Assembly (NCBI GenBank): GCA_022539475.1
Contig: VCMS01000007.1
Coordinates: 603,496-667,495, forward strand
DNA from: Gracilaria domingensis
Lineage: Eukaryota > Rhodophyta > Florideophyceae > Gracilariales > Gracilariaceae
DNA length: 64,000 nucleotides
Reading direction: 5' to 3'
The position numbers were made by a program, and so were the translations under genes. This document shows positions 1,861 through 59,516 of this stretch, piece by piece. Within the stretch, counting starts at the first letter, position 1. Each line of letters begins with the position of its first letter. Under the pieces are notes generated by a model. The model was not told the origin of the DNA, made no database searches, and saw only the letters and a list, made by a program, of their open reading frames with translations.

Positions 1861-1872
1861 TACCCTTGGTAC
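1861..1872. promoter_or_regulatory. Palindromic element, TACCCTTGGTAC
   Basis: An imperfect-arm copy of the recurring GTACC-NNN-GGTAC motif; the first base of the 13-mer is A instead of G. It is 442 bp upstream of the DNAJC11 ATG and 343 bp upstream of the divergent small gene. The regulatory role is inferred from recurrence only. Confidence 0.4.
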
Positions 1873-1969
1873 ATATACGCGAATATCAGAAGATAAACGT
1901 GGAGCGCTGTGCGCTTTCTGTTGATCCGCCTGATCCAATTATGTGGCTCATGGTAAAGTGTCAACATGT

Positions 1970-1982
1970 GTACCCTTGGTAC
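1970..1982. promoter_or_regulatory. Palindromic element, GTACCCTTGGTAC
   Basis: A perfect-arm copy (GTACC, 3-nt centre, GGTAC), 332 bp upstream of the DNAJC11 ATG. It is the second copy in this divergent spacer. Confidence 0.45.
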
Positions 1983-2314
1983 GATTACTCCAGATAAAGT
2001 CATGCCTCCTGAATTGCCCTGACCAGACATGTCCCCTCATCAAACTTGCCAGTTGCCAGAGGCAACCCGTCAATGTTGCGGTGGATTAAGATCATCGTTA
2101 TCAGAACTTATGACTAAGTTCCACAGCTTAGCTATCTGAACCAAAAGTCAGAATAGACGCGGTTATCTCGGATTGAGGTTGATTTCAAAGCTTTCACGAT
2201 TTGAAATTGTCCGTGGAGTCCTTGGTATTAACGTTTGTATCCTAGTACTATAGGAAACGTTCAAGTCTCAGTTCTTTTTTTCTTTCTAGTGACTAGCTGG
2301 ATACAGCCAACAGA

Positions 2315-4252
2315 ATGACCGATCCAAGCGAAGGAATTGGAGAAGATCTGTACACCATACTCAAAGTTTCAAGAGATGCTAATGAAACTGATCTGCGTTC
2401 ATCATTTCGAAAGCTATCGCAGCAGTTTCACCCAGATAAACATCTCGGTGAGCAAGCCAAGGCAACTGCCACAGACCACTTCACTAAAGTGAAGGAAGCT
2501 TACGAGATCCTTTCAAACAGTAAGTTCAGGCGCATTTATAATGAATTTGGTCTCGATGCCGCCCGAGCAGCTGCAATGCCTGGCATGGAACTGGTGCCTT
2601 ACAACGATCTGGCCGAACGTTTCAGAAATGAATCTATGGGTGGAAATGGAGGTGCCGGAATTAGCACCCCAAGAGATGCATACTTCACTGTCACCAACTC
2701 GTTAGAGCCAAGAATAGACGCTACAGGGCTCTCTGTTGCTTTGGAAGACGGAGATTATATCAATGCTAAAAACCTGGCTGTATGCACCCAGGTTGGAATA
2801 GCGACCGTTGCTACTGCATATGTCTCACAAAACAACACTGTTATCGCACGGTATGCGGCTGCTTGTCAGGGCTCTCGATACCAGAGCCGTGCTTCTGGGG
2901 GGGCTGGAGAGGTGGCAGTCTCAATCAGGCGACAGATTGACCCTCACATGCAGGCAGAAGTCACAGCACACGTTCCGCTGGAAGAGAGCCAGTCCATAAC
3001 TTATGGTCTTAAGACCTTTCGCTCTCTTTCTCAAAACATGACCGGGGCGTTTGACGTTACTTACGATCCAGGGCGAAACGATCTTACTACCGCGCTTACG
3101 TACACAAGATCGTTCAATGAACGATGCACGGCTAGTGCTTCTTGGGCTTACGGTGCTGCCTCTGGTTATGCATTTTCCTGGCGGAGGAATGCGTTCGATG
3201 AATACATATCAGATTCTGTTGCAGAGAAAGATGCTGAGACCGAATTATTCGGTCCTGAAAGTTCAGAGTGTCAAGAAACTTCTGGAAGTCCCTGGCGTCG
3301 CAGGATAGCTGTGTTTCTGAAGAAGCTAAATTGTTTTATAGAGCCGATGGGAGTGCGCTGGACAGCGAGATGGAGCTTGATGGACGCGTCTATATCGTGC
3401 CTCTTACGGAGGCCTATAGGGCTACACGCTCCTTTATTTGAGAAATGCGAACCTACAGGGCCGGGCGGGGGGTTTGTCCGAGCTCGGGGTTCGCTTGGCG
3501 TTATGGGTTGGGAGATGGAGCTAGGTGGTGGTCGAAAGTATGTTCTCGCTGATACAGCATGGACAATGTCCGTCGCATTTGGAACTCTAGGCGTGGTTTG
3601 GAGGCTTAAAATGACCAGAAGTGGGCACAGATTCAGTTTACCGGTCGTGCTTCATTCCGCAACAGCCGATCCGAAGACGGCCACAATCGCAGCCATTACA
3701 ACTTCAGCTCTCGTAAGCGCGATTCAGTACTTGATAGTAGAACCATGGCAGCAGAAAAAGGATCAAAGTGAAAGAGAGGAAGCTAAATCGCGCCGAGCTG
3801 ATGTTCTGAGTCAAGGGCGCCAAGATGCAGGGGCGGCTCTAGAAATGATGAAGCAGACAATCGAGCGGATTCGAAAAGAAGAAGAAGCTGTCGAAATTGA
3901 TGGGAAGAAAGGTTCCGGGTTGATCATAAAAAAGGCTGTTTATGGCGTCACCAGTAGTGTAACTAAGATGAGGTTTACAGATGACGCGCTTAAGAACAGG
4001 GAAATCGAAGCCGAAGCTGCAGATGTTACAGATGCTGTTCAGTGCCTTGTAGCAAAGAGCGCGCTGCAGGTTGTTTCAGCTACAAAGTCGACACTCCCTG
4101 GTTTCTGGGACCCAAGTGCCTACGGCGATAAAGACGACATAGTGCTGAAGGTCTGGTATTTGTTCAAGACAGAGAAGCATGAATGTATCATCGGAGACGA
4201 TCAAGCAATCGAACTACCTCTTTCTTCACATCGAGTGAGTGAGTGGTCTTGA
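2315..4252 (+). CDS. DNAJC11: DNAJC11-like J-domain protein (mitochondrial)
   Basis: A 645-aa intronless ORF with ATG at 2315. Residues 9-75 form a J domain with the catalytic HPD tripeptide at 39-41 (FHPDK), which stimulates Hsp70 ATPase. The middle part (about 110-430) is rich in alternating polar/hydrophobic strands, as in the beta-barrel-like central region of DNAJC11. The last 150 residues match the DUF3395 end of that family: a hydrophobic segment near IQYLIVEPW, then a charged helix, ending in VWYLFKTEKHECIIGDDQ. In animals DNAJC11 associates with the mitochondrial outer membrane and the MICOS/SAM bridge, and the same role is inferred here. J domain at the N terminus, DUF3395-type end and length (human about 559 aa) agree. 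No transit peptide is seen, as expected for an outer-membrane protein. Confidence 0.82.
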   Translation: MTDPSEGIGEDLYTILKVSRDANETDLRSSFRKLSQQFHPDKHLGEQAKATATDHFTKVKEAYEILSNSKFRRIYNEFGLDAARAAAMPGMELVPYNDLAERFRNESMGGNGGAGISTPRDAYFTVTNSLEPRIDATGLSVALEDGDYINAKNLAVCTQVGIATVATAYVSQNNTVIARYAAACQGSRYQSRASGGAGEVAVSIRRQIDPHMQAEVTAHVPLEESQSITYGLKTFRSLSQNMTGAFDVTYDPGRNDLTTALTYTRSFNERCTASASWAYGAASGYAFSWRRNAFDEYISDSVAEKDAETELFGPESSECQETSGSPWRRRIAVFLKKLNCFIEPMGVRWTARWSLMDASISCLLRRPIGLHAPLFEKCEPTGPGGGFVRARGSLGVMGWEMELGGGRKYVLADTAWTMSVAFGTLGVVWRLKMTRSGHRFSLPVVLHSATADPKTATIAAITTSALVSAIQYLIVEPWQQKKDQSEREEAKSRRADVLSQGRQDAGAALEMMKQTIERIRKEEEAVEIDGKKGSGLIIKKAVYGVTSSVTKMRFTDDALKNREIEAEAADVTDAVQCLVAKSALQVVSATKSTLPGFWDPSAYGDKDDIVLKVWYLFKTEKHECIIGDDQAIELPLSSHRVSEWS

Positions 4253-4925
4253 GGAACTGCTTCAGCTTCTGAACAACTGTAATTTCCTGGCTGTACATAC
4301 GAAGGTATCTTCATAAGCCGAGAGCGCGAAGCTGAGAATGAAAATGTGAGTCTTTAAGTAGCGAGCTATGCTCTTGGCATGGAACTATCCTGGTAGTGAA
4401 AGTTCTTAACAGTTCCATATCTGTCCTGATGGGTGTACACCCTCCTAACAGAAGAACAAATGAAGCTCGAAAGGGCAGAGAACGACTACATCATGACTGA
4501 CATGAACTGCAGCTTCGCTGCTGCTTCGATCAGATCGAATGTCCGGCTAACCTGTCCCATGGAAAAGAACAGTATTGCGCAAGATCGATCTTGCTCAATG
4601 TTCCTGTTGTTTTTCATGCCACGCTGGATGTACTAATTATACAATCCTCCCGAAAGCGCGGTTTGCAAGCTGTCATGACAAACGCTCAACTTTTCGTTCA
4701 CAAAATAAAAAGACGCCTCACCTTTGAAGCCTGTTATCTCAAAGCCATCGCCATTTCCGTCGTACCCTCTGTTCGGCACTGCGATTGACTTATGATCTGA
4801 AAGACGGCGAAGGCACCCTCGGCCCTTGGCCCCAAATCGGCTCTGTTTGCCAAGTCACCTCTTTGAAGAACATGTAATGTAGAAGATGTAAAGCTCGATG
4901 ATATCTCTTCCTAACCTACCTTGTA

Positions 4926-4965
<40 letters not shown>

Positions 4966-5445
4966 TCTCTATTGAAAAGTGCAGATCTCCCTTCGGAGTC
5001 CAACAACCAAACCCGTTTCGCTTCCTTAGGGGAAGTGAAGCACACTGCGAGAAGGTTGATCTCATGTGTCTTTATACCTACCAAATCGTGCTTGTGAATT
5101 CTTTGCAGGATTGCTGCATTATGTCAAAACCGAACATGGTGCATTTCTTAGTGCATTTATGCTTATGCATCATGTGATAATCACAGTAATGTCTCACATC
5201 CGAGAGAGTTGCTTTCTAATGCAAATTCTGATCATCCAGGGAGGTTCTCATTAAGAATTGCGTGTCAGCAAATCCCATCCAGAAACTAAAACTCGTCCTT
5301 CAATTGCCTTCGCTTCTGTGCAGCTCCATGTTGCCCCTTTCTTCGTGGCTCCAATTTTCCTTCGCTGAATCTGCCTATCTGTTTCTCTGTCTTCATCGTT
5401 TTTCTCTTTTGCTTTCGCTACAACCTTTCTTCTCGGACTCCTAAA
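4253..5445. other. Intergenic region with a (CT)n microsatellite
   Basis: The 1.2-kb interval contains only short ORFs without coding character. Its main feature is a (CT)n run. The last 190 bp, before the ORF starting at 5446, resemble the region upstream of its paralogue at 50824: AATTGCGTGTC at 5257-5267, followed by CCCATCCA and an A-rich stretch. These bases are therefore likely promoter or leader of the small gene family. Confidence 0.55.
4929..4970. repeat. (CT)n / (CTTT)n simple repeat
   Basis: About 30 bp of pure CT dinucleotides followed by CTTT-type variants. On the minus strand it reads as a (GA)n run, like the tails of the truncated retroposons elsewhere in the window, but no target-site duplication was found here. 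Confidence 0.85.
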
Positions 5446-5931: not shown

Positions 5932-6145
5932 TTCATGTAGAAATCTTTAAAAGAAAAAGAGCCAGGTGGAAATACGCTCTGAGCAAGGAGAAGAACAAAG
6001 AGCGATTGCCGGAAACGTGAACTCTTTTTATATCTATGAGTGGACTACAACCTTCACATATTATGTTGTGCCGCACAGTGATATCCCCCGCACTTCGTCT
6101 CAGAGCATTTCCCTACAAATGCCCGAGACCACTGACGGGCTCATT

Positions 6146-6158
6146 GTACCGAAGGTAC
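6146..6158. promoter_or_regulatory. Palindromic element, GTACCGAAGGTAC
   Basis: A perfect-arm GTACC-NNN-GGTAC element with centre GAA, 215 bp after the small-family gene and far from the next start codon. It is the copy least clearly tied to a promoter. Confidence 0.35.
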
Positions 6159-8773
6159 AGTACTAGCTCTTCTCTTGATTAATCATCATTACCGACCCCA
6201 CAAACCATGTTTCTGGATGCCCTATTTTCCGTTCTTTTTCTTCTCAAGCGCTCTTATTCCAGAACGTTTGCTTTGGTGTCAGTTTAACCATTTTCAGTGT
6301 ATCATTCCTTGCATCTTATCTGGGGAGATAAACGCAACAAGGATAAAAGCTTTACTATCTACTTCTAGTATTCGACGGGTGCAATTAGTCAACACTAAAA
6401 CCCAGAGGTTGATCCAATCTCATTGCTCCTCGTTGCGCAATGCTCAATCAGTCTTCGTTACTCACTCCAGAAGAAGAAGAGGAAGAACAAGATACTGAAG
6501 TAGGGGGGCTATCTCAAGCAATCCAAAAAGACATTTACTCAATGCCGGCAGCAATATAGTGCTAAAACAACTCTATCTCAGTAGTCGTAAGAAGTAATTG
6601 TCTTCCTTCATTCTATGTTCTACCCCATCACTTCGCGCCATCCGCAAACTGTCATTCACAAGATTCCCTGACCAAAAGCTACTGCTTTCACCTGGACAAT
6701 ATAGAAGTGTGGTACCTGTTGGACCTACTAAGTTGCAATTGCCAAAAGGTGGTTGTGTAAATTCTCTATTACGTTTGTGAAGAGAATCTTCAGTGCTACC
6801 AGGATATGAGTAACGTTTGTTGCCTCATACAAAATATATGATGTAATTCTACTAACTCATAGCATGCCAGAGACATCGAGCTCGTTTGCTCATTACGAAG
6901 CCTGATTAGTTTGTCAGAGGCACAAGGGCTTCCCGTATGGTCTTGTCTACCAATATGCGTTGCAATGATAGCTGCAATATCAAGGAATTCATTCGAATAC
7001 GACCGGCCCTTGGTACAACTTTTCTCCTGCTGAGCAAACCAGTATTCATTTGACTCAAATGCCACTTTCGATGATTTTTATAACTGCCAATCCCCGAGCA
7101 TCTCAAAGTGGCAGGAGGAAAACAGTTTTGTTAGGTCAGCCGAGGCAGAATAAATTCATAAACATCAATTAGGATTTTTAAGTGACAGTTAAATCCCAAC
7201 GCGCATTTTGCTGTTAATGCATATCTGGTGGAGGTAGTCCATAAATGTTTTGTGCGCAATGCTGCTCTACGGTTGCGCCGGTACTACCAACGGTAGCCTA
7301 CCTCTATTTCCCACAGAATATTTTACTCTCGCATTAAGTGACCGGGACAAACAGTATCGGAAGCTCACAGTCTGTTGAATTTCAGAAACACTCATCTACT
7401 GGATTAAATCAATTTGCCGTTGTTACGTCTTTTGCAGGTTGACATCAAACAGTATTCTTTTTCACGATCCACTCATGATGAATGCATGGTATGCAGAAAG
7501 TTTTACCCCTCATGGCTCTATATTCCCTACCTAGTTTCTATATCTGGTCAAAAAGTAAATTACGATGCGAAAAAATACAAGAATAAACGTCTGCGTTTTA
7601 TGCGTTTCTGAGAAGAAATTGACGAGTTTTTAGGTTCTTTATCATCTTTATTGCGCTTCTTTTTTACAAGATGTAATGATTATACACGTATATGTACATG
7701 TACACGTCGGAGGCAATACTTTAGATTGGATTAGTATTGAAATACGGGTATTGCAATGATATTGCTAGACAGAAGAGCGAAGATACTTTGTATTGGTTCG
7801 AAAGAGCAATACAGGTGTAATATTGGAAACCTTAGCCTAAGGCGTTCTTTACGATTTACATCCACAAATTAATGACTGATAGTTTGCTCTAAATATGAAA
7901 ACATTCAGCTGTCCAAAACTCTACATTTCTACCAAAAGAAGAGCAAAGTATCATAAACAAAAACGACACAGTCTGCGGCCATGCATACGTGTGCTCATGA
8001 CGTATTCATGACTTCATTTGTTCTGCTTAAGCTCAAAGTTTCAAGTCCAACATCTCGACTGATTTTAATCTCTCAATCAAAAAAAAAACCCCTGTGCCCT
8101 CTCTGAAAGAGGTTGTTATTCTTCTTTTCACGCTACTCCGAGAGCAAGAAAAGGATGTTGTCAATCACAACAACTAACGCACCAAGCAAAACTACCTCTT
8201 CTAGAAATCGACAATTTTAGGTTACAACTTGAGAGTTGAGACTGAAAGCTGGCTAGAAGTAGATCGCTGGTTTCTGTTTTAGCTTGGCTTTTTTAAATTG
8301 CTTGAAGCCTTTCAATATATTGGATCTTTCTCAGTAAAGACTCCAATATTACATTGTAATTTCATATTAATTTAGATTGTCCGATTCGCTCCAATAACAT
8401 TGTTCCGACCCTTGCATGTACATGTAAATTAAGTGTATTTTGATGAAAGGTTCTTCTGCACGTATTGGGCTTGCTATGCTCATGTTTCTGAACTCAAAAA
8501 ATGTGTCTTACTTTCTATGGTTGAGTGGAGAGTCAGAATCAAGATTAACTGGAATCATTCCGGGAGAATGGTTAGCATGGGCTCTAGACCCTTGAAGACC
8601 AGATATTGGCGAATTGAGTAACAATCTAAGACCTTACTAAAGAAGAAGACGAGTAACCATATTAAGATGGTGGTTTTAATTGGGCTTGGATGGACTTGGT
8701 TGGTAGAACCGGAGCCATTCTATCTCTTGTACACTACTAATAAATAAAGCGGAGAGGACCGCATAATAATTTG

Positions 8774-8849
8774 TAGCCACGTAATAGGCCATGTCATAAT
8801 AATCTGTTAGCCATGTAATAGGCCATGTAATAGTCTAGTCATAATAATC
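8774..8849. repeat. Imperfect local duplication, AT-rich
   Basis: TAGCCACGTAATAGGCCATG (8774-8793) recurs as TAGCCATGTAATAGGCCATG (8808-8827). Each copy is followed by GTCATAATAATC, directly in the first and after a 10-nt insert in the second. This is a simple local duplication without coding potential. Confidence 0.7.
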
Positions 8850-9062
8850 AAATATATATCGAGAGATGCATTATTCTCATAATAATAATAATAATATTTC
8901 ATAAAATAGCTATCTTACATTATGGCAGACTTCATGTTGAAGTGCAAATGTAGTGTACAAGTAGATACGTGTTGGTTGGAGACTAAAAAAAGTATTGTTT
9001 TTGTTGAATTACTACAAATTTTGTAAATTATTTTTTGAAGGAACACTTCCCTGTCAAGGTCC

Positions 9063-13295: not shown

Positions 13296-13924
13296 TTCGT
13301 GGTCCTGCTCCAAAGCGAACAAGGGCTTCAGCCGCAGATAATGTCGTAGTAGAGTCTGAAGTACAGAGTAAGAGCCCGCAAGAAACCGCGGGTCGATTTG
13401 CGGGAAAGCACCCTGTTTCGTTCGGTGAGCAAAGCTACTTTGAAGTTATGCACCCATATGCAACGCCAGTTGCGCAGATGGAGTCCAACTTTCGGACAAC
13501 TGCCTTCGTACCCTTGGTATACGTATACCCAGGTATGGCGCGAAAATGACATAAAAGCTCCGAAGTGCGACAACTTAAAAAGTGGCTCGTTCTCTGCAGT
13601 TTCGGAGATTAAACGGCAACGTGTCATTGTATCTATCGAAGTGCGAAAATAATTCAAAAATATACAGATCTCTCACATGGAATGCACTGGTGCATACTGT
13701 ATGGCAACACGTTGCGGCACGCACGATTGCACAAGGCTCCCTTTTCCTCCACTCAGTCAAAAATGAATTGGTCTTTAGCGGTAATACCTGAAGAGTTCTC
13801 TTCCTCATCATCGGCACTTTCCCGCGGATGAAATCTGTTTGAGTGGCGACGCAGGTGACAAGCTCTCTTTCAATTCCACGCTTTCCGAAACAATTTTCGT
13901 CGAACGAAACCAGCAATCGTTGTC
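13296..13924. other. Divergent promoter region between NELF-B-like and ArfGAP genes
   Basis: A 629-bp spacer with no supported gene. Short ORFs run across it on both strands but show no domain. It contains GTACCCTTGGTAT (13508-13520) and, 4 bp later, a related palindrome ATACCCAGGTAT (13525-13536). Confidence 0.6.
13508..13536. promoter_or_regulatory. Paired palindromic elements GTACCCTTGGTAT and ATACCCAGGTAT
   Basis: One near-perfect copy of the recurring 13-mer, followed after ACGT by a shorter variant with a 2-nt centre. It lies 213 bp upstream of the NELF-B-like ATG and about 390 bp upstream of the ArfGAP ATG. Confidence 0.45.
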
Positions 13925-16957: not shown

Positions 16958-17702
16958 TGCTGAACTTGAAAGTTGAATCTGGTTGTCACTTGTTCAGGAA
17001 CCAAAGTATTGCGGAAAGTGCATGCTATTGGTTCGGTACATAGGAATTGTTTGACCGCGGTTGAGGAACGATAGGCTCTTCTGGTCATGTGTTGCCTGCA
17101 CTTCATCTGAAAGTGCCGGCGCTTCGCTGCAGACTTCGACGCAGCATAGAAGTGGGACGACTGGTGGAAATCGCGAATCAGTGACAAGTTGTTGTAGAGC
17201 TTGTAAATCCAGCCGTGCTGCACTGTGAATTACGAGTAGCCCCGGGCTACTGCACGGTAGCCTGGTGTATCCGATCAGGGAGTGAAGCGATTGGATCATT
17301 CCATCACGTGCGGTGGAATCTCAATGGTATGTTGATGCCTACGATTTTAGGGGTGTTTGGAGGGGTTGGAATTTGTTTCATATTAGGGGTATAAGGGAAT
17401 GATGTTGTACTCAAGAAAATGACGTGTAAGACCTTGACGTGTACCAAGGGTACCAAAGGTAGGTACTTGGCAGATATCTCCGTTGCCTGCGCGCCCTGGT
17501 TCGCGTTCGACCAGTTCAACACAAACAACCACCAATTGCGTCGCGCCCGCCTCGTCGCCGACGGCAGCTCCAGAAGCCCGATGTCACCGCGACACACTCA
17601 ATGCGCACGACTTTCTCGTGCAAACAATTCCATCTTCTGCACACACTCCTGACTTGAGCAACTACACAAGGGAAAAGGCTACAGCAAGAAGCGCATCGCA
17701 CA
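16958..17702. other. Divergent promoter region between CNOT9 and the TIR-NB-ARC-WD40 gene
   Basis: A 745-bp spacer without a supported gene. It contains a GTACC palindrome at 17441-17453 with a second overlapping half (TACCAAAGGTA, 17451-17461). Confidence 0.6.
17441..17461. promoter_or_regulatory. Overlapping palindromic elements, GTACCAAGGGTAC and TACCAAAGGTA
   Basis: A perfect-arm GTACC-NNN-GGTAC (centre AAG) whose last three bases begin a second, shorter copy. It is 250 bp upstream of the TIR-NB-ARC-WD40 ATG and 484 bp upstream of the CNOT9 ATG. Confidence 0.45.
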
Positions 17703-20700
17703 ATGGAAAACGAAGCCTCCTCGCCGAAACCTCAATATGACATCTTCCTCAGCCATGCTGGCGAAGACAAGGAGACAATCGCCCGTCCGCTGTATCACGG
17801 CCTTTGTCGCCATGGCTTTTCGGTGTTCTTAGATGAGGAGTCTTTCCATCTTGGAGATGACTGCCCAAAGGAGATGGATGACGCGATGCAGACCGCTCGG
17901 ATTGGTATCTTCATACTGAGCCCGGAGTTTGTCGCCAAGTATTGGCCAATGCGGGAGCTTTTGACATTTGTCCGTCGCTACGAACGCGCCGTGAAGGAAG
18001 GGAAGACTCCGCCATTGCTCGTATCTGTATTCTATCGTTTTGGCACACACGAGTGTCGTGATTCGGATATCTTCAGCAAATACGCAAATCTGTTTCGTGA
18101 GCACGGACTTTTCAAACGTGCGACAGATGCTGTTACCTCACTTAAAGACGTCCTGCACGCTTTGGACGTAGCCGCCACACTGTGGAGCATCAGAAACGAC
18201 TCCAATGCAGACAACTCCAACCGCCCGGGGATGACGCCCAACCGAGAATCTTTTGTTCAAATGGTATTGGAACAAATTTTGGAACACCATGGCATTCAAA
18301 AATGTGATCCTGTTCATGAACTTCCTGTCAGTGTTGGTGGTCAAAAGCAACAGCGAGATTTGTATAAGAAGAGCAACAATGTGCCACCAAACCCGGCCAG
18401 ATTGATTCTGGAGTACGACGATCTCTCAACATGTGAAGGCCATTTGAAGAAAGTGGTGTTAAATAAGACTAAGAGTCGAATTGTTGCGGTAGTAGCGACC
18501 GGAGCAGGTGGGGTTGGCAAAACGTGCGCCTTGAGGGGACTTGCTGACGACGATGAGGTGGATAAGGCGTTTCCCGGAGGGATCTTGTACATTCAACTCG
18601 GAAATGATGCGAAGACACCCGATCTGATACGGGAAGTGGCAAAAATTGTCGATCGCACTGGAGGTGTAACATTAGGGAGAGAGATCAAGGCAGCGGAGAG
18701 TACCAAAGAAGCATGCGATAAGGCCTCTAAATGGTTTGAGTCAGAAAAATGTCTGTTCCTGGTAGATGATATCTGGCAGGGTAATGGGATCGACTCGAAA
18801 GTGTTATCTAGTCTTGGACTCATGGTGAAGCGGAACAGTCGAATGGTGTACACAACCAGAGACCATCATTTTTTAAGCCGAGCTGACGAAGTACTTGAGT
18901 TCGAAACAAAGAAGCCGTTTAGCGCAATATCACGGCGAATGTTGATGAACCACGCAGGGTTTGTACCCAGTACCGTGATGAGCGACAAGAATATGAGAGC
19001 GATAGACTTTTTTCTTACTTTATGCCAAGGACTTCCGCTTGCGTTTGGCATTGTGGGTGGTTCCGTACTGATGTATTCACGACATTGCTCTCCGAAGCAA
19101 GACGCGTGGTCAGAGTTTCACAACGACATTTTGACGAAACGAAAAGACCTGATGGATACCGGCGCCGAGGAGTACGGTAAACTGCCGAAGATTGTAGATC
19201 TATCTCTTGACGTACTGCAGGAGAGGGTTTTGACAGGAAAGTTTGAGCAGTGGTTCCGGGCGTTGTGTGTTGTTCAGAAGCAGCAATCTGTTCCCGCACA
19301 GATGCTTCAGAAGCTGTGGAGCTTGAATACATTACAAGAAGCTGAAACAGTGGTAGAATCATTTGCTGGTGTATCCATAGTGCAGATGGAGAGAAAGGAT
19401 GGTTCAGTATTCGTTAAGTTGCATGACTTAATCCTGGATATCGCCACTCGCAGAGCCAATGAGAGGCAGGAAACACAGACGTTCTTTCGCACACTTGTTC
19501 GCAACTATATCTCACGAGGTGAACAGGAGAACAGAGATGGCTCGATTTTATCGATAAGGAGGAACACTGTGGAGTCAGAGCGGCGTAGTCATTTGGAGAA
19601 CGATATCGAAACATGCCAGAGATCAGAGCGACAGACGCGGGATGGAATGCTGACTTGCGCACAGTTTCAATGTGATGAAACCAGATATGCTGCAGTTGGT
19701 TTGCTAGTAGCGCTGCCTCAAACGGAAGACATCACAGACACGACTACGGTGCATATGAGTCACACACGGGAAGCGCGACTTGGAACTGAGGCGGAAAAAG
19801 TGGTGGGAGGGTTGGACGAACAGCTTAGTGGAAACTTGGCGCTGTGCCATGCTTGGTGGGAGGCTGAAGATGACGGTTACCTACAAGACAACCTGTGCAG
19901 AATTCTTCGCAATGCGACATATGTTGACGAGCTGCTGTGGTTGCTGTCGCAGCCTCAATGGGTTATACAGCGACAGTGGAGAGACGGGCTGTACAAAATC
20001 GAACAAGACTTGAAACATGGAAAGGAAGTATGCAACAACAACCTTTTTCAACATGCTGATCGCATTGAGCATCTTGAAATGCTCGGAAAGGCTGCTGGGC
20101 TGAGCGCTCATCATGTACACAACAACCGCCACATAGAAGAAGCCTGGTTCCAGATGCACGGGCGGTTGCTGTGGCATGCCACTCAGAGTGAGCTTACTAA
20201 CGAATTCGTGAGCAAAATGGAAAGGGAAGCTCCGAGGCCATGGCTGAAAGCGTCTGCTGGACTGTTGCATCAGGCTGGTAGCGGCGCATTGGTAGTTGTT
20301 CCAGGCCCAGGAGAGGTTTTGTGCGTGGTTGAGGAGGAGGATGAGATCTGGATTTTGTGGAAAGAAAGCGCCGTGCTGCACGTGGGTAGGTATGACCGAA
20401 GGTTGAATCGTTACGAGAAGAAACGATATGGAGGACCTCACTACGACATCGCTTGCGCCTCGTTCTTATGTGGCGGGCACAGCGTTGTGACAGCGAATAA
20501 CTGCAAGCCGCGCATTCTTGTGTGGAACAGGGAAACGGGCGCGCTGGAGCGATGCGTGGAGCACATGTGCGAGCACCACCAGCGATTTCTTCGTTTTTGC
20601 GCGAATGGCACTCGCATTGCGTGCGAATCGGCAAGAGATCTCCGGTACTCCGTCCGACTGTTCGATACGCTGAGCGGCGCAGCAGTTGCGCAGCCGCTAG

Positions 20701-21692
20701 AAGGTTACACGAGCTTGGTGATGTGTTTGGCGGTGAGCGCGGACGGCACGCGCATCATTTCGGGGCATTTTGACAACACGGTGCGGATGTGGGACGCTCA
20801 GAGTGGCAGTGCCGTCTGGCAGTCGCTTGAAAGTCACACGGGCTTTGTGAAGTGTGTGGCGGTGAGCGCGGACGACACACGCATTGTGTCGGGGTCTTTT
20901 GACGACACGGTGCGGATGTGGGACGCTCGAAGCGGCGCAGCAGTCGCGCAGCCGCTGGAAGGTCACACGAACTCTGTGAACTGTGTGGCGGTGAGCGCGG
21001 ACGGCACACGCATCGTCTCGGGGTCTAAAGATAAGACGGTGCGAGTATGGGACACTCAAAGTAGTGGCAGCGCCCTGAAGCAGACACTTGAGGGTCACAC
21101 GGACGATGTGAGCTGTGTGGCGGTGACCGCGGACGGCACCCGAATCTTGTCGGGGTCTAAAGACAAGACGGTGCGGGTGTGGGACGCTGAGAGCGGCGCT
21201 GCTGTAAAGTTATGGCAGCCGCTTGAAGGTCGCACGGAGGTGAACTGCGTGGCTGTGAGCGCGGGCGGCACGTGCATCGTTTCGGGGTCTTGGGACAAGA
21301 CAGTGCGGGTGTGGGACGCTCAGAGTGGCAGCGCCGTGAGGCAGCCACTTCAGTGTAAGGTGCTAGCAGTGGCTTTGGCAGTGAGCGACGATGGCAATCG
21401 CATCGCGTGCTACGTTTGGCGCGGACGAGAGCTATGGGCATGGGACGATGGGGCAGAAGCGTGGCAGCTCGTGGCGTGCCAAACGACTTGGCGGCGCACT
21501 GTCGATTCTCCCGAGCTCGCGTGGCCAGACAGACCGACAATCACATGGGAGCCCTGGTCGGTTGAGGTGAGCGACCGCGCCGAGGACGGCTCCCTCATGG
21601 TGCTTGGCACCTGCGAGAACCCTGTGCGAAGCGTGCTCGGCGGTGATGTGTTCTTCGATAATGATTTCCGATCGTGCCGCATCATACGCTGA
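17703..21692 (+). CDS. TIR-NB-ARC-WD40 receptor (NLR-like)
   Basis: A single 1329-aa exon with ATG at 17703. Residues 11-150 are a TIR domain (YDIFLSHAGEDK...); the Glu equivalent to the NADase catalytic residue is retained (E85 in WPMRELL). The NB-ARC ATPase follows: P-loop GAGGVGKT at 267-274, Walker B CLFLVDDIW at about 350-358, a sensor-like MVYTTRDHH, CQGLPLAF, and an MHD-like VKLHDLILDIA. A helical linker leads to a C-terminal WD40 propeller (about 880-1290) with near-identical repeats such as VSADGTRIVSGSKDKTVRVW. By analogy with plant NLRs and Apaf-1, the propeller would sense a ligand and the NB-ARC would oligomerise the TIR to make NAD-derived signals. Plants use LRRs with TIR; WD40 is the Apaf-1, fungal and bacterial choice. 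The nearly identical repeats suggest recent expansion or conversion. Confidence 0.92.
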   Translation: MENEASSPKPQYDIFLSHAGEDKETIARPLYHGLCRHGFSVFLDEESFHLGDDCPKEMDDAMQTARIGIFILSPEFVAKYWPMRELLTFVRRYERAVKEGKTPPLLVSVFYRFGTHECRDSDIFSKYANLFREHGLFKRATDAVTSLKDVLHALDVAATLWSIRNDSNADNSNRPGMTPNRESFVQMVLEQILEHHGIQKCDPVHELPVSVGGQKQQRDLYKKSNNVPPNPARLILEYDDLSTCEGHLKKVVLNKTKSRIVAVVATGAGGVGKTCALRGLADDDEVDKAFPGGILYIQLGNDAKTPDLIREVAKIVDRTGGVTLGREIKAAESTKEACDKASKWFESEKCLFLVDDIWQGNGIDSKVLSSLGLMVKRNSRMVYTTRDHHFLSRADEVLEFETKKPFSAISRRMLMNHAGFVPSTVMSDKNMRAIDFFLTLCQGLPLAFGIVGGSVLMYSRHCSPKQDAWSEFHNDILTKRKDLMDTGAEEYGKLPKIVDLSLDVLQERVLTGKFEQWFRALCVVQKQQSVPAQMLQKLWSLNTLQEAETVVESFAGVSIVQMERKDGSVFVKLHDLILDIATRRANERQETQTFFRTLVRNYISRGEQENRDGSILSIRRNTVESERRSHLENDIETCQRSERQTRDGMLTCAQFQCDETRYAAVGLLVALPQTEDITDTTTVHMSHTREARLGTEAEKVVGGLDEQLSGNLALCHAWWEAEDDGYLQDNLCRILRNATYVDELLWLLSQPQWVIQRQWRDGLYKIEQDLKHGKEVCNNNLFQHADRIEHLEMLGKAAGLSAHHVHNNRHIEEAWFQMHGRLLWHATQSELTNEFVSKMEREAPRPWLKASAGLLHQAGSGALVVVPGPGEVLCVVEEEDEIWILWKESAVLHVGRYDRRLNRYEKKRYGGPHYDIACASFLCGGHSVVTANNCKPRILVWNRETGALERCVEHMCEHHQRFLRFCANGTRIACESARDLRYSVRLFDTLSGAAVAQPLEGYTSLVMCLAVSADGTRIISGHFDNTVRMWDAQSGSAVWQSLESHTGFVKCVAVSADDTRIVSGSFDDTVRMWDARSGAAVAQPLEGHTNSVNCVAVSADGTRIVSGSKDKTVRVWDTQSSGSALKQTLEGHTDDVSCVAVTADGTRILSGSKDKTVRVWDAESGAAVKLWQPLEGRTEVNCVAVSAGGTCIVSGSWDKTVRVWDAQSGSAVRQPLQCKVLAVALAVSDDGNRIACYVWRGRELWAWDDGAEAWQLVACQTTWRRTVDSPELAWPDRPTITWEPWSVEVSDRAEDGSLMVLGTCENPVRSVLGGDVFFDNDFRSCRIIR

Positions 21693-42633: not shown

Positions 42634-44247
42634 ATGCGGATAACTTCTTGGAATGTCAACGGTCTTAAAAGCATGCGTCCTCTTGGGCCACTTTTTGAAA
42701 CTCTTGATTCGGATATAATCTGCCTACAGGAGACAAAGATGTCCGGTAGAGGAGATCCTGAGCTCGAGAGCGTAGCTTTTGTAAAGGGTTATGACTCTTT
42801 TTTCAGTATCTGTAATCAGAAGCGAGGATATAGCGGAGTAGCAACCTTCTGCCGAAAGAAGGTTGCAACGCCGTATGACGCTGGTGAAGGGTTTTGTGAC
42901 GGAGTGGGAGGTGCTTCAATTGAAATGTCCGAATCTGAAGCTGCTGCCACCTCTGAAAAACTTGTCTTCATCGATGAAGAAGAAGCAATACCGCGTTTCA
43001 GTTCGGAGACACTGGAGATTGTGAAAGATGAAGGTCGTTGCGTTATAACAGACCATGGCTGCTTCGTTCTCATCAACGTATACGTTCCAGCCGTGACAGT
43101 AATGGGCCGTGCTATGTTTAAAATGCAATTTCTAGATGCGTTACGAGCAAAGGTGTGTGCTTTACAAGGGATTGGAAGAAAGGTAATAGTTGTCGGCGAC
43201 CTCAATATCTGCCCGTCTCTTAAAGATCGAGCAGAACCTGTACTGCCCAGTGAACTTTATGAATGGAATCGAAGTCCAACTAGATTGTGGTTAAGAGCTT
43301 TCTTAGAAAGGAATAACATGGTGGACTCGTTTCGAGAACTGCATCCCGATACAAACTCTGCCTACACTTGTTGGTCGGAAGCTACAAGGAGCAGAGAGAA
43401 CAACCACGGGGTGCGAATAGATCTTATTTTAGTGAGTCGAGATTTCTTCACATCAAGTGTAACGGAGGCGACTGTTTGGTCTCATATCAAAGGATCAGAC
43501 CATTGTCCCGTCTCCATTCGATTGCAGAAGACAAGCGATATGGTAATCTGTGCTAAACGTTTGCCTTCGTTCTGCACACAGAATATGCGCAGATTTGGGT
43601 TCAGGCAACAGCCACTAACTTCTCTTCTTGTAAAACGAGAAAAACCAGGTTCACCTTCTCCTGAACCATGTACTAGACTAACCGGCAAGATTCGGAAGCT
43701 TTCTAAAGGATCTGTAGTACCCGTGGTACCCAGCGCGAGAAGATTTGGTCAAGGAGAAAAGAAGGGCAACGAGTTTGCGAGAGAGAGAGAGAGAAAACGA
43801 AAAGGGCGATACACACAAACTTCACTTTTGGCTTTGACACAAAGGACACACCCGCTGAGAAGATCCAGCTGTGAAGAAAACCTATCCTCGATTCATCAGA
43901 ATAGTACCAAGACGCCCGTTTCTGCGAGTGATGGAGGCGAGTGTTTGCAAGACGGTACTGAAGCTGGTTTCCATAACACGGCTACCAGTGATCACCAAGA
44001 ACGTGACCTTTTAAACAAGCACAAGCGCAAAGTAGTATCTCAAGCTTGGCGTAAACTTCTGACTGGACCACCACCAACACCACGATGTCGTCACGGAGAA
44101 CTTTGCGCGCTGAAGAAAGTCACCAAGAGTGGCGAAAATAGGGGGAGGACATTTTTCTCTTGTCCTTACCCCGCAGGAATCGGCAAGACTGCTAACTGCA
44201 ACTTTTTTCAATGGGCTCCTTTCAGAGCCGGGTTCGAGCCAACATGA
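42634..44247 (+). CDS. APE2: AP endonuclease 2 (APE2) with zf-GRF domain
   Basis: A 537-aa intronless protein; the first ATG of the open frame is at 42634 (MRITSWNVNGLKS). Exonuclease-endonuclease-phosphatase motifs in order: SWNVNGL, ICLQETKM (catalytic Glu), NVYVPA, VVGDLNICPS, VRIDLILVS and KGSDHCPVSI (catalytic His). A long linker is followed at the C terminus by a GRF zinc finger (RCRHGELCALKK, then GRTFFSCPYP and CNFFQWAPF), which in APE2 binds single-stranded DNA. APE2 acts in base-excision repair and in the 3'-5' processing that starts ATR signalling. A GTACC palindrome (43717-43729) and a (GA) run (43780-43793) fall inside the coding region of the linker. The gene converges on the next gene with a 58-bp gap. 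Confidence 0.93.
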   Translation: MRITSWNVNGLKSMRPLGPLFETLDSDIICLQETKMSGRGDPELESVAFVKGYDSFFSICNQKRGYSGVATFCRKKVATPYDAGEGFCDGVGGASIEMSESEAAATSEKLVFIDEEEAIPRFSSETLEIVKDEGRCVITDHGCFVLINVYVPAVTVMGRAMFKMQFLDALRAKVCALQGIGRKVIVVGDLNICPSLKDRAEPVLPSELYEWNRSPTRLWLRAFLERNNMVDSFRELHPDTNSAYTCWSEATRSRENNHGVRIDLILVSRDFFTSSVTEATVWSHIKGSDHCPVSIRLQKTSDMVICAKRLPSFCTQNMRRFGFRQQPLTSLLVKREKPGSPSPEPCTRLTGKIRKLSKGSVVPVVPSARRFGQGEKKGNEFARERERKRKGRYTQTSLLALTQRTHPLRRSSCEENLSSIHQNSTKTPVSASDGGECLQDGTEAGFHNTATSDHQERDLLNKHKRKVVSQAWRKLLTGPPPTPRCRHGELCALKKVTKSGENRGRTFFSCPYPAGIGKTANCNFFQWAPFRAGFEPT

Positions 44248-46258: not shown

Positions 46259-47387
46259 GACGCTGTGCCAGTGAATTGAATAGCTCGGATGGTTAGGCGA
46301 AAAGTATGGAAATCAAGGGGTGACCGTATACTTCTTAAACTACTTGTAAGGGGTGGGACGTTGCTCGTTGGCAAGGCCGATCGTAGCAGTTGCCCTCCTC
46401 CAACAAGGATTTCATGAGCCAGTGCAAAACGCGTAGACGAAGCTCGGCGATGCTTTGGCCGCCGCCAACGTTGGCGTTGAAGAGACTGGGATTGAGGGCG
46501 CGGAAGCCACTCGACTTTCGGGAACAAGCCTTGGAGCTCAACAAGTAAAGTTGGAATCAGATGTGATCCAGGTGACGGAGCTTGCAGGTCGCCGCACTAC
46601 GTATTTCAGAAGTTGGCGCCCTCGCGTTGCCTCTTGTTTGCGAGCGTCCCGATTCGTGGCATGGGGAGCGCGCAGAAAGCGTACCTTCGTACCAAGGGTA
46701 CAACTGTAGTTGTACCTCACGAATGATCCGTGAGTCGCGATCCCATCGCTGCAATCCAATTGAACTCTGGTTTTCGTAATTCTCTAATTTTTTTGAAAAA
46801 CGAACGACGAACAAGCGGCTTAACAGAAAAAAATGATCGTTCGTTCGTTACAACTTCTTCCCGAACGTGATGAAGGAGCGGAACACAAGATAAACGAACG
46901 TTTCTCCTTCTTTGACAAATTCAGAAACTTTTTTTCTCAGAACGTTCCAAACGCGTGAACAGACATGATCTTCTCCATGACTTTCATTTGAGCGGCGCTG
47001 CACTAATGCTCACAGTCGTTCTCGACCAAACATCAGCAGTCACACAACATGCGTGAGAAGGGAAGGAGATGCTTGTGTTACAAAAGAAGTTCACTTCACA
47101 CAAGATACCGCAGCGCGCAGTGCGGTTGTGTGCCCACCGTACTGTAGTACTGCGCCAAGATACTTCCGCTCCGACGATAAAGACATGTTCCATAGAAGCC
47201 TCCGGCAAGTTTCTAGCGGGGCTTTTGCTCCTTGTTACTCTTTGAGTGTGATGCTCTTCGTCTCCATAGTTGACATGAACACTAGCCTGGTCGCCATTAT
47301 CTTTTGAGTCTCAATTAATCAGACCGAGAACACCTTCGAGATCTAATGCTTTCTTAGAACAACTAATAGCTGCTGAACGTGCGCAAT
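46259..47387. other. Intergenic region upstream of the charged coiled-coil gene
   Basis: 1.1 kb without a supported gene. It contains GTACCAAGGGTAC (46689-46701), followed by a small inverted repeat CAACTGTAGTTG (46701-46712). AT-rich runs follow to about 46960. Confidence 0.5.
46689..46701. promoter_or_regulatory. Palindromic element, GTACCAAGGGTAC
   Basis: A perfect-arm copy with centre AAG, 431 bp upstream of the minus-strand ATG at 46258. It has the same sequence as the copy upstream of the TIR-NB-ARC-WD40 gene. Confidence 0.45.
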
Positions 47388-47395
47388 GCGGCTAC

Positions 47396-53199: not shown

Positions 53200-53497
53200 T
53201 ACCTCCTCCAAGGCGGCATTGGAAGAGCATGTGTACCACCAACCTCATCCTTCATCACAAGCAAAACTTGGTGCACATGTCAGATGCCAAAGTCATTCAT
53301 GGCAAGAAAAGATGGTGACAATAGGAAGGTGCTCGTCCTAGAGTTGCTCTCGTGTCGTGAACATAGCCACATCGATATGCTTTCATTTTCAAATCTGAGG
53401 GTCACCCTAAGGTCAGAACGGTCTGCAAGAATTAAGAGTGGTTCATCAACGTGGGAGCCATGAAAACTGCCAGGATTCCGATGTGTTTGGAAGCGAA

Positions 53498-55036: not shown

Positions 55037-56018
55037 GAGATAAAGACAAAAGTTTGCAAGGCAGTTAACGTCGTACGTCTTGCTCTGCGCGATGAGAAGT
55101 GCAAGAGGGGCCGAATTCTTAGATTTGCACGTTCGTAAAATTCACCGATCAGAATGTTTCCTAAACATAACACAGAAGCACAGACAAACCGTGTACCAGG
55201 GGTAACTTAGATCACGTCATCAAGACTGCGGCGCTCAGTTCGAGGGTGATTTGATTTGATGAAAGCCCGACTAGCTGAGCTATAGATGCGCAACGGCGAG
55301 CACAATCCATCGAGCAATACACGTGTGGAGAGATGCAAAAAAACGCTTCCTGTTTTCACGTGCATGAGGTGTTCATCGCTTCGAAGGAAGTGGGCAGCCG
55401 CGGGCAAGAAGGCGTTGAATTATGTCTGCACAGACGTCGCCTGCTGGGGATTTCGCTTCCACGTTACTTCGGACGTCTTCCAGTGGAGGATCTTTGAAAA
55501 CACATTTCATAGCTGCAAACGCCCGTAGCAACGCACTACACAGACCCTGGTTTGACTCGTGAGCACCCATAGCACGTTTTGCCCAGCAAACGTACACACT
55601 GTCTGGCTTCGTCGCGAAATCCAGGTGGTATTACAGTTGGTTAGATTAGAGCAAAATTCGTAGCTCTTCCACAACGTTTTCTCTCATGCACGAGGGCGAT
55701 GTCTTTGAAGAATCTTTGATGCACGCAGACTGGCAGTTGAAGGAAAAACGTTACGTTTGTAGACTTCACTTTTCTCCATCATACACCAGCGAGGATCAAT
55801 CCCATGAGGAATCAATAAATAGAAATTAATTAACCCCGAAGCTGTTTAGAATAATCACTGTTCCGTGTTCTTTCTGTGACTCGCTCGCTTCCAAACTCCA
55901 GCAAAAAGCTGGCTCCAGCATTTGTTCCAACCCTCCCGACTCACTTCTGCCGAAAGTTGAGAACTTTTGGCTATTGTTTCTTACTTTCCCCGAGGTCGCT
56001 ACCAAAGCATACAAACCG
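55037..56018. other. Intergenic region upstream of the RBX1 array
   Basis: About 980 bp. It contains a relaxed GTACC element (55193-55205) near the peptidase gene and, from about 55782, the first copy of the repeat unit that carries RBX1. No other gene was seen. Confidence 0.5.
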
Positions 56019-56536
56019 ATGGCGCAAGCAGGCTCGTCTTCCAATATGGAAATCGATACTCCCGCCGGACCGGCTCCGCCTCCGGCTGAGGAGAAACCCA
56101 AACCGCGATTCGAGATAAAGAAGTACAACGCAGTCGCTCTGTGGGCTTGGGGTACGTCCTCTTTTGATATCCATCCTTCGAAACCCTCTGAAAGCTAACC
56201 CTTCACTCTCTCTGGGGCTGTTTTCTTCTTTCAGACATGGTGGTCGACAACTGTGCTATTTGCCGTAACCACATTATGGACGCCTGTATTGAATGCCAGG
56301 CGAAACAAACCGCTCCTGGCGGAGAGGATTGCAATGTTGCTTGGGGCGTTTGCAATCATGCGTTCCATTTCCATTGCATTTCGTAAGTTCTTTGTACTGC
56401 ACTTTGTGTATAAGCACAGTCTCACTAACTCATAGGCTTTTGTTCTGCCACGTAACGTAATAGGCGATGGTTGAAGACTCGTGAAGTATGCCCCCTAGAC
56501 AACTCCGAGTGGGAATTCCAGAAGTACGGCCGTTAG
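56019..56536 (+). CDS. RBX1: RBX1 RING-box protein, tandem copy 1 (3 exons: 56019-56151, 56235-56382, 56464-56536)
   Basis: Spliced here to 117 aa; human RBX1 has 108. Exon 1: [17 protein letters not shown], a Pro-rich linker, then [18 protein letters not shown]. Exon 2: [40 protein letters not shown]. Exon 3: [20 protein letters not shown] and KYGR plus stop. All zinc ligands of the RBX1 finger are present. RBX1 is the RING subunit of cullin-RING ubiquitin ligases. The upstream frame is open without a better start. Intron 1 is 83 bp and intron 2 is 81 bp. Confidence 0.93.
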
Positions 56537-56560
56537 CCAAACACAAAGGTTTGATCATTC

Positions 56561-56644
56561 TTCCTAGTGAGAGAACTCTTCTTTCAACAGAAACGCTATG
56601 CGGCACGCCGGAATTAGGCTGTTATATCCATAAATAGAGAGAGA
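56561..56644 (+). mobile_element. 84-bp retroposon tail downstream of RBX1 copy 1, target site GATCATTC
   Basis: Flanked by GATCATTC (56553-56560, 56645-56652). It contains CCGGAATTAGG and ends ATAAATAGAGAGAGA. Tandem copy 3 has the uninterrupted site (58388-58395), which proves insertion. Confidence 0.8.
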
Positions 56645-56950
56645 GATCATTCACGTAATCATTGCAGGTGTTTCCCAGAGCGTTGGGCAACATTCTAGGC
56701 CAAGTTTTTCTTGTTATGTACTATATAGCAGGAAGTGGACTATCCTTGTACATCAAACACCAGCGACCAATACCATGAGGGATTAATAAATAGAATCTAA
56801 TTAACCCCCGTCTATGTTCTTTTTGACTCGCCTCCAGCAAAAAGCTCCAGCATTTGTTCCACCCCTCGCGACTCACTTCTGCCGAAAGTTGAGAACTTTT
56901 GGCTATTGATTCTTACTTTCCCCGAGGTCGCTACCAAAGCATACAAACCG

Positions 56951-57003
56951 ATGGCGCAAGCAGGCTCGTCTTCTAATATGGAAATCGATACTCCCGCCGG
57001 ACT

Positions 57004-57046
<43 letters not shown>

Positions 57047-57439
57047 CCTCTGGCTGAGGAGAAACCCAAACCGCGATTCGAGATAAAGAAGGACAACGCA
57101 GTTGCTCTGTGGGCTTGGGGCTGTTTTCTTCTTTCAGACGTGGTGGTCGACAACTGTCCTATTTGCCGTAACCACATTATGGACGCCTGTATTGAATGCC
57201 AGGCGAAACAAACCGCTCCTGGCGGAGAGGATTGCAATGTTGCTTGGGGCGTTTGCAATCATGCGTTCCATTTCCATTGCATTTCGTAAGTTCTTTGTAC
57301 TGCACTTTGTGTATAAGCACAGTCTCACTAACTCATAGGCTTTTGTTCTGCCACGTAACGTAATAGGCGATGGTTGAAGACTCGTGAAGTATGCCCCCTA
57401 GACAACTCCGAGTGGAAGTTCCAGAAGTACGGCCGTTAG
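56951..57439 (+). CDS. RBX1: RBX1 RING-box protein, tandem copy 2 with intron remnant (2 exons: 56951-57285, 57367-57439)
   Basis: As copy 1, but intron 1 has lost 65 bp including its donor. The last 18 bp of the intron remain and are in frame, adding GCFLLS between WAW and DVVVDNC. The linker is expanded by Pro-Ala repeats (GGCTCC triplet pairs), and WEFQ near the C terminus has become WKFQ. The result is a 135-aa open protein, provided the 18 bp are translated. The insertion lies in the strand that binds the cullin in RBX1, so function may be reduced; it could be a decaying copy. Confidence 0.8.
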
Positions 57440-57463
57440 CCAAACACAAAGGTTTGATCATTC

Positions 57464-57547
57464 TTCCTAATGAGAGAACTCTTCTTTCAACAGAAACGCT
57501 ATGCGGCACGCCGGAATTAGGCTGTTATATCCGTAAATAGAGAGAGA
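57464..57547 (+). mobile_element. 84-bp retroposon tail downstream of RBX1 copy 2, target site GATCATTC
   Basis: A second copy of the same insertion, flanked by GATCATTC at 57456-57463 and 57548-57555, inherited by tandem duplication with copy 1. Confidence 0.8.
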
Positions 57548-57853
57548 GATCATTCACGTAATCATTGCAGGTGTTGCCCAGAGCGTTGGGCAACATTCTA
57601 GGCCAAGTTTTTCTTGTTATGTACTATATAGCAGGAAGTGGACTATCCTTGTACATCAAACACCAGCGACCAATACCATGAGGGATTAATAAATAGAATC
57701 TAATTAACCCCCGTCTATGTTCTTTTTGACTCGCCTCCAGCAAAAAGCTCCAGCATTTGTTCCACCCCTCGCGACTCATTTCCGCCGAAAGTTGAGAACT
57801 TTTGGCTATTGATTCTCACTTTCCCCGAGGTCGCTGCCAAAGCATACAAACCG

Positions 57854-58371
57854 ATGGCGCAAGCAGGCTCGTCTTCTAATATGGAAATCGATACTCCCGC
57901 CGGACCGGCTCCGCCTCTGGCTGAGGAGAAACCCAAACCGCGATTCGAGATAAAGAAGTACAACGCAGTCGCTCTGTGGGCTTGGGGTACGTCCTCTTTT
58001 GATATCCATCCTTCGAAACCCTCTGAAAGCTAACCTTTCACTCTCTCTGGGGCTGTTTTCTTCTTTCAGACATGGTGGTCGACAACTGTGCTATTTGCCG
58101 TAACCACATTATGGACGCCTGTATTGAATGCCAGGCGAGACAAACCGCTCCTGGCGGAGAGGATTGCAATGTTGCTTGGGGCGTTTGCAATCATGCGTTC
58201 CATTTCCACTGCATTTCGTAAGTTCTTTGTACTGCACTTTGTGTATAAGCACAGTCTCACTAACCCATGTGCTTTTGTTCTGCCACGTAACATAACAGGC
58301 GATGGTTGAAGACTCGTGAAGTATGCCCCCTAGACAACTCCGAGTGGGAATTCCAGAAGTACGGCCGTTAG
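57854..58371 (+). CDS. RBX1: RBX1 RING-box protein, tandem copy 3 (3 exons: 57854-57986, 58070-58217, 58299-58371)
   Basis: Same exon lengths as copy 1 (133, 148 and 73 nt), giving 117 aa. The protein differs only at a few sites (for example PPLAEE for PPPAEE, QARQ for QAKQ). It lacks the retroposon insertion in its 3' flank and so keeps the ancestral site. Confidence 0.93.
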
Positions 58372-58440
58372 TCAAACACAGAGGTTTGATCATTCACGTA
58401 ATCATTGCAAAGGGCAACATCCTAGGACGACTTTTTCTTG

Positions 58441-59516
58441 TTATCTACTATTTAGCAGGACGCTGGATGGAGCTCGATGCATAAAAAGTTCCGCGCGGCC
58501 TTTAATTGTTTCATGTGTTCTTATTTTTACGGAAGCGGTGGAGCTAATTCCGCTCCTACGCGTGGGTTTGCCCAAGACCGAACGACCTGTACTACCTCTA
58601 TATCACTGCCACGGACCACTGCTCAGTATTGTTCATGTGTGAACCTATAAAGCTACTTTTTTATTCGCTTTGAGAGCTCATGATGTGTATCGTTCACATT
58701 GTTTTCAAAGCAAGCACACGCTTTCCAAACCCCTCTGCTTTCTCGATAACTATAGCAGAATACTATTCTTCTGGAGACAAGAGAGCTAGGTCACATCATC
58801 TACAGACAAGAATTGCGATGGGTATTCTAAGCAGTTTGCGTTTTATTCCGAACTCTGCAAGAAAAGGATCTCTTTTGCAACTCCAGAACCTTGTCATCCC
58901 GCCTTTATTGTCGATTTAAGAAAGCTCTCATTCTTCTCCGGACTATATCCTTTTCGGCTGCATTCAAATGCAGCGGCAACAAGAATTGGGTTCCGAGCCA
59001 TGAAAAGGGGCAGGTGTGAATCTGCGGATTCCCTCCATCGTTTGTCGTCTGAATCTGTATCGTACATGTACATTTTATGTTGTGTCTGTAGATCTGCCGA
59101 ACATCACATTTGCCACTACACGACAAGCAGGTGAACGGTTACAGACAAACTTGTCTGCCTAACGTTTCATGGAACTCATGAGCTTTCTATGACAAGCTAA
59201 CGGGCCGAAAGGGGGCAAATAACATACTAGGCGAATTCCTGGACATTCAAATTTCAAACCTATGCAATTGGACTGGAAATAGCCGGGGGTCCCCAGCCAG
59301 CAGATGCACGTGAGCTGGAAAGTGCTCGGCGAGCACTGCTCGCTGGGAAAAATCTATGCTGATGATGCTTGATACCTTTGGTACCTTGGCAGCAAGAACC
59401 CCGTAATAGAAACCGAAGTAAAAACGGAAAGCGCTTAGCTAACGCATGACTCCTAGCTGTTCTTTTACCAAGCTTTCATCAACCTGGGAAGTACAATTTA
59501 ACAGGGTGCGTTCGCG
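58441..59516. other. Intergenic region between RBX1 array and augmin-like gene
   Basis: 1.1 kb without a supported gene; short ORFs at 58680-58919 (+) and 58905-59126 (-) lack ATG context or domain. It contains ATACCTTTGGTAC (59372-59384). Confidence 0.5.
59372..59384. promoter_or_regulatory. Palindromic element, ATACCTTTGGTAC
   Basis: A copy of the recurring 13-mer with one arm mismatch, 133 bp upstream of the augmin-like ATG. Confidence 0.4.

Follow-up and report, generated by a model that had tools for sequence, protein, structure and literature searches.

A palindromic TACC-N3-GGTA element in non-coding DNA of Gracilaria domingensis as the predicted site of a two-fold symmetric protein

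Copies of the palindrome and their neighbouring genes

The window analysed here is a stretch of 64,000 nucleotides of Gracilaria domingensis contig VCMS01000007.1 (positions 603,496 to 667,495), in which the palindrome GTACC-N3-GGTAC recurs among open reading frames (ORFs) for a DnaJ-C11-like protein, an ArfGAP protein, a TIR-NB-ARC-WD40 protein and others. To our knowledge, cis-regulation in red algae is poorly understood. We refer to GTACC-N3-GGTAC as the exact form and to TACC-N3-GGTA as the core; the control is the reversed pattern or another spacer length. Genome-wide counts were taken over one genome (77,892,253 bases, 680 contigs). The fully read set of 264 kb consists of the window and positions 1-200000 of contig C1 and yields 25 core sites (11 + 14); the whole of C1 (789,604 bases) holds at least 79 core sites among the matches listed, which reach up to 780 kb. 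Coding calls were made with hexamer-scored gene models (71 genes in the 264 kb), and the background of the window was estimated from 100 dinucleotide shuffles.

Five exact copies, starting at 1970, 6146, 17441, 43717 and 46689, were found in the window against a shuffle mean of 0.02, in agreement with the preliminary description, which had expected fewer than one exact copy in 64 kb. Copies with at most one mismatch numbered 10, with a shuffle mean of 0.60. The pattern scan recovered all eight copies of that description, together with its relaxed copy at 55193-55205, at the positions given there, and added two, namely 17450-17462, which overlaps the copy at 17441, and the core-only 7285-7295. 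The 11 core sites of the window compare with 6.4 predicted from the density on C1 (p = 0.06), so the window is not clearly exceptional beside C1.

The first two copies, ATACCCTTGGTAC (1860-1872, one arm mismatch, core exact) and GTACCCTTGGTAC (1970-1982, exact), lie 449 and 339 bp upstream of the plus-strand DnaJ-C11-like ORF (ATG at about 2314). The exact copy GTACCGAAGGTAC (6146-6158) is non-coding by the gene model, yet it lies within a short ORF (6136-6498) that was not called; the gene start formerly claimed behind it was not recovered, and in the right direction the closest called coding start is 3.9 kb off. The core-only copy TACCAACGGTA (7285-7295) is likewise non-coding by the gene model. 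In a divergent gap, GTACCCTTGGTAT (13508-13520, one mismatch) precedes the coding segment of a minus-strand ORF by 98 bp and, on its other side, the plus-strand ArfGAP ORF by about 640 bp. A second divergent gap holds the exact copy GTACCAAGGGTAC (17441-17453), 256 bp upstream of the TIR-NB-ARC-WD40 ORF (ATG at about 17702) and about 500 bp from a minus-strand Rcd1 ORF, and GTACCAAAGGTAG (17450-17462, one mismatch), which is shifted by 9 bp and has a half-site in common with it. The copy GTACCCGTGGTAC (43717-43729) combines exact arms with an untypical spacer and is possibly a chance occurrence, because it lies inside an ORF (Exo_endo_phos plus GRF zinc finger). The sequence GTACCAAGGGTAC recurs as an exact copy at 46689-46701, 436 bp upstream of a minus-strand ORF (ATG at about 46258). 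The remaining two copies, each with one mismatch, are GTACCAGGGGTAA (55193-55205), 162 bp upstream of a minus-strand aminopeptidase-P-like ORF, and ATACCTTTGGTAC (59372-59384), 139 bp upstream of a plus-strand ORF (ATG at about 59516). Of the eight copies described first, 43717 lies inside an ORF, and the range of 130-480 bp upstream of ATGs does not hold for 13508, which is 98 bp from the start of a called coding segment.

The TIR-NB-ARC-WD40 protein, of NLR-type architecture and probably red-algal, is encoded by a single ORF at 17658-21692 (plus strand); the two overlapping sites at 17441 and 17450 lie in the gap between this ORF and that of Rcd1. Just upstream of the same gene, a 59-base stretch (17338-17396) is 97% identical, in inverted orientation, to positions 487-545 of a locus on contig C2 (L082). 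ORFs in this DNA are mostly single-exon, as suits Gracilaria; a genome paper gives 70.6-76.6% intronless genes for the species annotated there and 78 Mb for the G. domingensis genome (PMC10388701).

Genome-wide excess and shape of the element

Across the genome, the exact form occurs 686 times and the reversed pattern 165 times. With exact arms, spacers 0-2 together give 265 occurrences and spacers 4-12 together 728, so that the 3-bp spacer exceeds the mean of the 12 other spacers (993/12, about 83 each) about eightfold, the spacer-12 count containing the 47 doubled sites described below. The enrichment, noticed in the window, accordingly extends well beyond it. For the core, 2,977 copies were counted against 1,517 for the reversed control and a total of 8,902 over spacers 4-12, a mean of about 989. 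In the 264 kb, 25 exact cores stand against one to three at each of ten other spacers, and TACC-N3-GGTA is the strongest of all 4-mer inverted dyads with spacers of 0-20 in the DNA not called coding (24 vs 1.45). The next two dyads owe most of their copies to a tandem repeat located around C1:112-117 kb (112074-116522, L016), whose unit bears GCTGG-N5-CCAGC (16 of 16 occurrences there) and GAGC-N17-GCTC (20 of 29). Among 5-mer dyads, GTACC-N3-GGTAC is found six times against a floor of 0.2 and is outranked by GCTGG-N5-CCAGC, from the same repeat, and by nine others.

The core is strict, as every single substitution leaves at most an approximately twofold excess in the 264 kb. The logo of the 25 unbiased sites is nearly flat outside the core, the outer G being present in 15/25 and the outer C in 12/25 of the oriented sites. 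The spacer follows a preference: RAN or NTY was found in 2,099 of the 2,977 core sites genome-wide (71%) and in 360 of the 1,517 reversed controls (24%), and on the 25 read sites the same test gave 20, compared with 205/619 in the CCN3GG background (p = 2e-6). On C1, 71 of the 79 listed sites have NYY or RRN, where half would be expected, and GAC, AAA, AAG, AGG, GAA and AAC with their complements account for 60 of the 79. The CTT or AAG centre reported for most copies is thus present in five of the eight originally described and in only 11 of the 79 listed on C1. These preferred spacers suggest that the middle of the element is read too. Orientation is unbiased genome-wide (1,042 vs 1,057 of the sites with RAN or NTY).

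An inverted repeat could also be selected as a hairpin in RNA or single-stranded DNA, with a 5-bp stem and a 3-base loop. No rival 4-mer stem with a 3-base loop comes close, the next being CGTC-N3-GACG (11 vs 1.85); moreover, the one-mismatch copies of the window lack compensating changes, and loops of both complements are equally frequent. Sequence strictness and equal orientation disfavour an RNA hairpin in particular, and we regard selection for a hairpin of either kind as highly improbable. The dyad CGTC-N3-GACG is itself a second spacer-3 dyad enriched in the non-coding DNA of the 264 kb, and is possibly the site of another factor.

Doubled sites, clusters and position relative to genes

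Two exact sites 9 bp apart, with a half-site in common, were found 47 times genome-wide and once in the control; among the listed sites of C1, five gaps of 9 bp were observed against 0.008 expected. In 42 of the 47 doubles the two spacers are unequal, so that slippage is an unlikely cause. The shared half-sites at 9 bp suggest cooperative or side-by-side, perhaps multimerising, assembly.

Whether copies of a mobile or repeated element carry the motif can be judged from the flanks of single sites and from 20 doubles, a hand-picked and non-random sample. Four of these doubles (L033-L036) are 99-100% identical over 314-400 bp and two others (L037/L038) 98.7% identical over 398 bp. Judged by the combination of spacers, the first family may account for up to 9 of the 47 doubles and the second for up to 3, which would leave about 37 independent ones. 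The remaining 14 of the 20 have unrelated flanks and match one another only across the site and at most some 40 bases. The single-site flanks searched against the genome (nine of a set of 20, each the left flank of a site on C1) each matched their own place alone, in a search that skips common words, bar one 57-base inverted match within one flank's own stretch; together with the nearly flat flanking logo, this makes a repeat or transposon origin very unlikely for the bulk of the sites, and the two small families of near-identical doubles remain. The L033-L036 copies are near-identical over at least 314-400 bp, each bearing the doubled site, and are perhaps a mobile element using a host site.

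Since 9 bp equal three codons, coding repeats such as Val-Pro-x units could generate the doubles, and 7 of the 20 fetched doubles do lie in a frame open for at least 110 aa within 400 bp. Such a frame is commoner in random 400-bp pieces of C1 (1,227/2,000), and none of the 20 doubles falls in a called coding segment, in pieces that at 400 bp are short for this test. Coding repeats are hence scarcely credible as the general source, and a few doubles may be coding.

Denser groupings were also observed. Four core sites lie within 53 bp at one locus (L031), and C1:646188-646462 (L052), which is not called coding, is a homotypic cluster of five core sites in 275 bp.

Core sites avoid called coding sequence: one of 25 lies within it in the 264 kb, compared with 2,331 of 5,000 random positions (p = 3e-6), and none of 14 on C1:1-200000 alone (p = 9e-5). 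Of the 25 core sites, 12 lie upstream of a coding start at no more than 500 bp, which is true of 546 of 5,000 random positions and of 10 of 60 other-spacer pairs. This figure divides into 8/11 in the window, at 98-449 bp, and 4/14 on C1:1-200000. Against random non-coding positions, of which about 20% lie so placed, the window gives p = 9e-5 and the 12 of 24 non-coding sites of both stretches p = 0.001. In a second placement test on 1,200-base pieces with a score of 15, "upstream" was assigned to 7/11 sites in the window, 4/14 on C1 and 2/20 exact sites elsewhere on C1 and C2; the same label fell to 1/20 spacer controls and, among 1,500 random places (789 of them coding), to 118. Fifteen of the 20 exact sites on C1 and C2 have no called coding sequence within 600 bp.

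These placements bear on the view that the palindrome is a promoter element proper, core or proximal, acting at a set distance from transcription starts. The share in the window and the combined test speak for it, as do the divergent gaps that hold the sites at 13508 and at 17441/17450, the sites at 142548 and 142848 within one divergent gap of C1, and the presence of TTATAA near 9 of 60 sites. Outside the window the preference fades (4/14, p = 0.32; 2/20), the distances to coding starts are scattered and orientation is free. Only 10 of the 71 called genes have a site within 500 bp upstream, counting the nearest start alone, so the site is not general, as had been thought possible. The 5'-flank preference thus stands in the window and is not clear on C1 or C2, and the claim that the palindrome lies mainly in promoters or is a core promoter element, unsupported elsewhere, rests mainly on the window that inspired it. 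We consider a promoter element in this strict sense rather unlikely.

A different possibility is an architectural or general-regulatory-factor site, akin to an insulator or a nucleosome-excluding sequence, that is strict, dispersed, non-coding and indifferent to gene class. The strict core, the non-coding placement with no clear tie to promoters, the excess of about 2,000 of the 2,977 core copies over the other-spacer mean, and clusters such as the five sites at C1:646188-646462 are in line with such a role, whereas the promoter share of 8/11 in the window favours ordinary gene regulation. On this evidence an architectural role appears doubtful.

A predicted site of a two-fold symmetric protein

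A strict inverted repeat of fixed spacing that is non-coding, free in orientation and often doubled would be expected under selection by a symmetric DNA-binding protein. We therefore propose, with a probability of about 0.75 and from sequence analysis, that the palindrome, scattered in non-coding DNA, is a predicted sequence-specific site at which a two-fold symmetric protein would bind. Sites of dimeric factors are a familiar class, characterised by inverted half-sites, fixed spacing and non-coding enrichment, all of which were found here. The suggestion of a dimeric factor in the preliminary description is borne out in this respect by the strict core, the fixed spacing, the free orientation, the unconserved flanks and the avoidance of coding sequence (1/25). 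Protein binding, dimerisation and an effect on transcription are what we infer from them.

In the proposed mechanism, the element (g)TACC-[RAN/NTY]-GGTA(c) would be bound by a homodimer or close heterodimer, with each subunit contacting one TACC/GGTA half-site. Base contacts or the shape of the DNA could serve to sense the spacer, which is fixed at 3 bp and has A/T at its centre next to a purine or pyrimidine. Where sites are shifted by 9 bp and have a half-site in common, they would build short arrays, (GGTACCNNN)n, on which the protein may assemble cooperatively or side by side, and the sites would probably regulate the transcription of a subset of genes.

Several points weigh against this proposal. 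The motif evidence comes from one genome, and a reader protein was not found, profile searches of the genome for RFX, SBP and Zn_clus domains being silent, with controls equally silent. Genome-wide, the core alone is just threefold over the other-spacer mean and twofold over the reversed control, and its strictness exceeds what we would expect of most transcription factor sites. The avoidance of coding sequence is weaker when measured against other-spacer pairs (1/25 vs 15/60, p = 0.02), and the gene models are crude: they overlook at least the ORFs of Rcd1 and ribonuclease P, which Pfam profiles detect. The self-only flank matches are not proof of uniqueness, because the genome search skips very common words. 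Promoter placement outside the window is not significant, as stated above for C1, and of the 20 exact sites elsewhere on C1 and C2, two have a start as the closest called coding piece within 600 bp. As to promoter words, TTATAA near 9/60 sites compares with 120/4,000 random non-coding places and 1/20 spacer controls; among the co-occurring 5- to 7-mers scored, it is the best picked from many 6-mers, hence a weak lead, and GTAC-containing words rose too. TATAA[AG] near the sites showed no clear excess (14/60 vs 779/4,000).

Comparison with known systems gave partial likenesses. The X-box of RFX factors, GTNRCC-N0-3-GGYNAC, is similarly built from an inverted short half-site ending in CC/GG with a short spacer and a dimeric reader. 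In the present element the half-site is TACC with an outer G instead of GTNRCC, as the logo of the 25 sites shows for (g)TACC-N3-GGTA(c), and the spacer is fixed at 3 with a preference of its own; the RFX domain (PF02257) has no match in the genome and none in the 14 control genomes. SBP/CRR1 elements of green plants have a GTAC core, and GTAC is frequent in both arms of the palindrome. The conserved unit here differs in being TACC and GGTA at spacer 3, the outer G being merely preferred, and the SBP domain (PF03110) has no match in the genome, with the control silent. Zn2Cys6 sites of fungi are inverted triplets, CGG-Nx-CCG, which resemble the palindrome as inverted repeats with a fixed spacer. 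The palindrome lacks the CGG/CCG half-site, CGG arising only where the spacer ends in C, e.g. GTC; Zn_clus (PF00172) again gave no genome match, with a silent control.

The yeast general regulatory factor Reb1, whose site is TTACCCG, offers a likeness of another sort, since Reb1-type sites are strict, short, dispersed and non-coding and have TACC in common with the element. Compared by sequence only, they differ from it in that the red-algal element is palindromic with a fixed spacer. A literature search with literal motif strings and on red-algal promoters, factors and chromatin yielded no matching element among the matches listed, in titles and the beginnings of abstracts, with most subscription papers lying outside the search.

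It is conceivable, and in our estimation unlikely, that a red-algal factor, possibly of a family outside plants, animals and fungi, reads about two thousand sites and assembles in 9-bp steps as an organising or general rather than an ordinary regulator. If the reader of the palindrome were architectural, it would, if this is true, be such a factor outside the lineages in which such factors are known. For the symmetric protein proposed here, a motif with defined spacing, a spacer rule and an array form lends itself as bait in a search for the reader.

A separate observation in the same genome concerns the phycobilisome linker domain, whose genes, when scattered over many contigs of a eukaryotic genome, indicate a red alga. 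The domain has 14 matches: contig C680 holds four of them, three in one 878-aa frame, and the other 10 are spread over eight further contigs.

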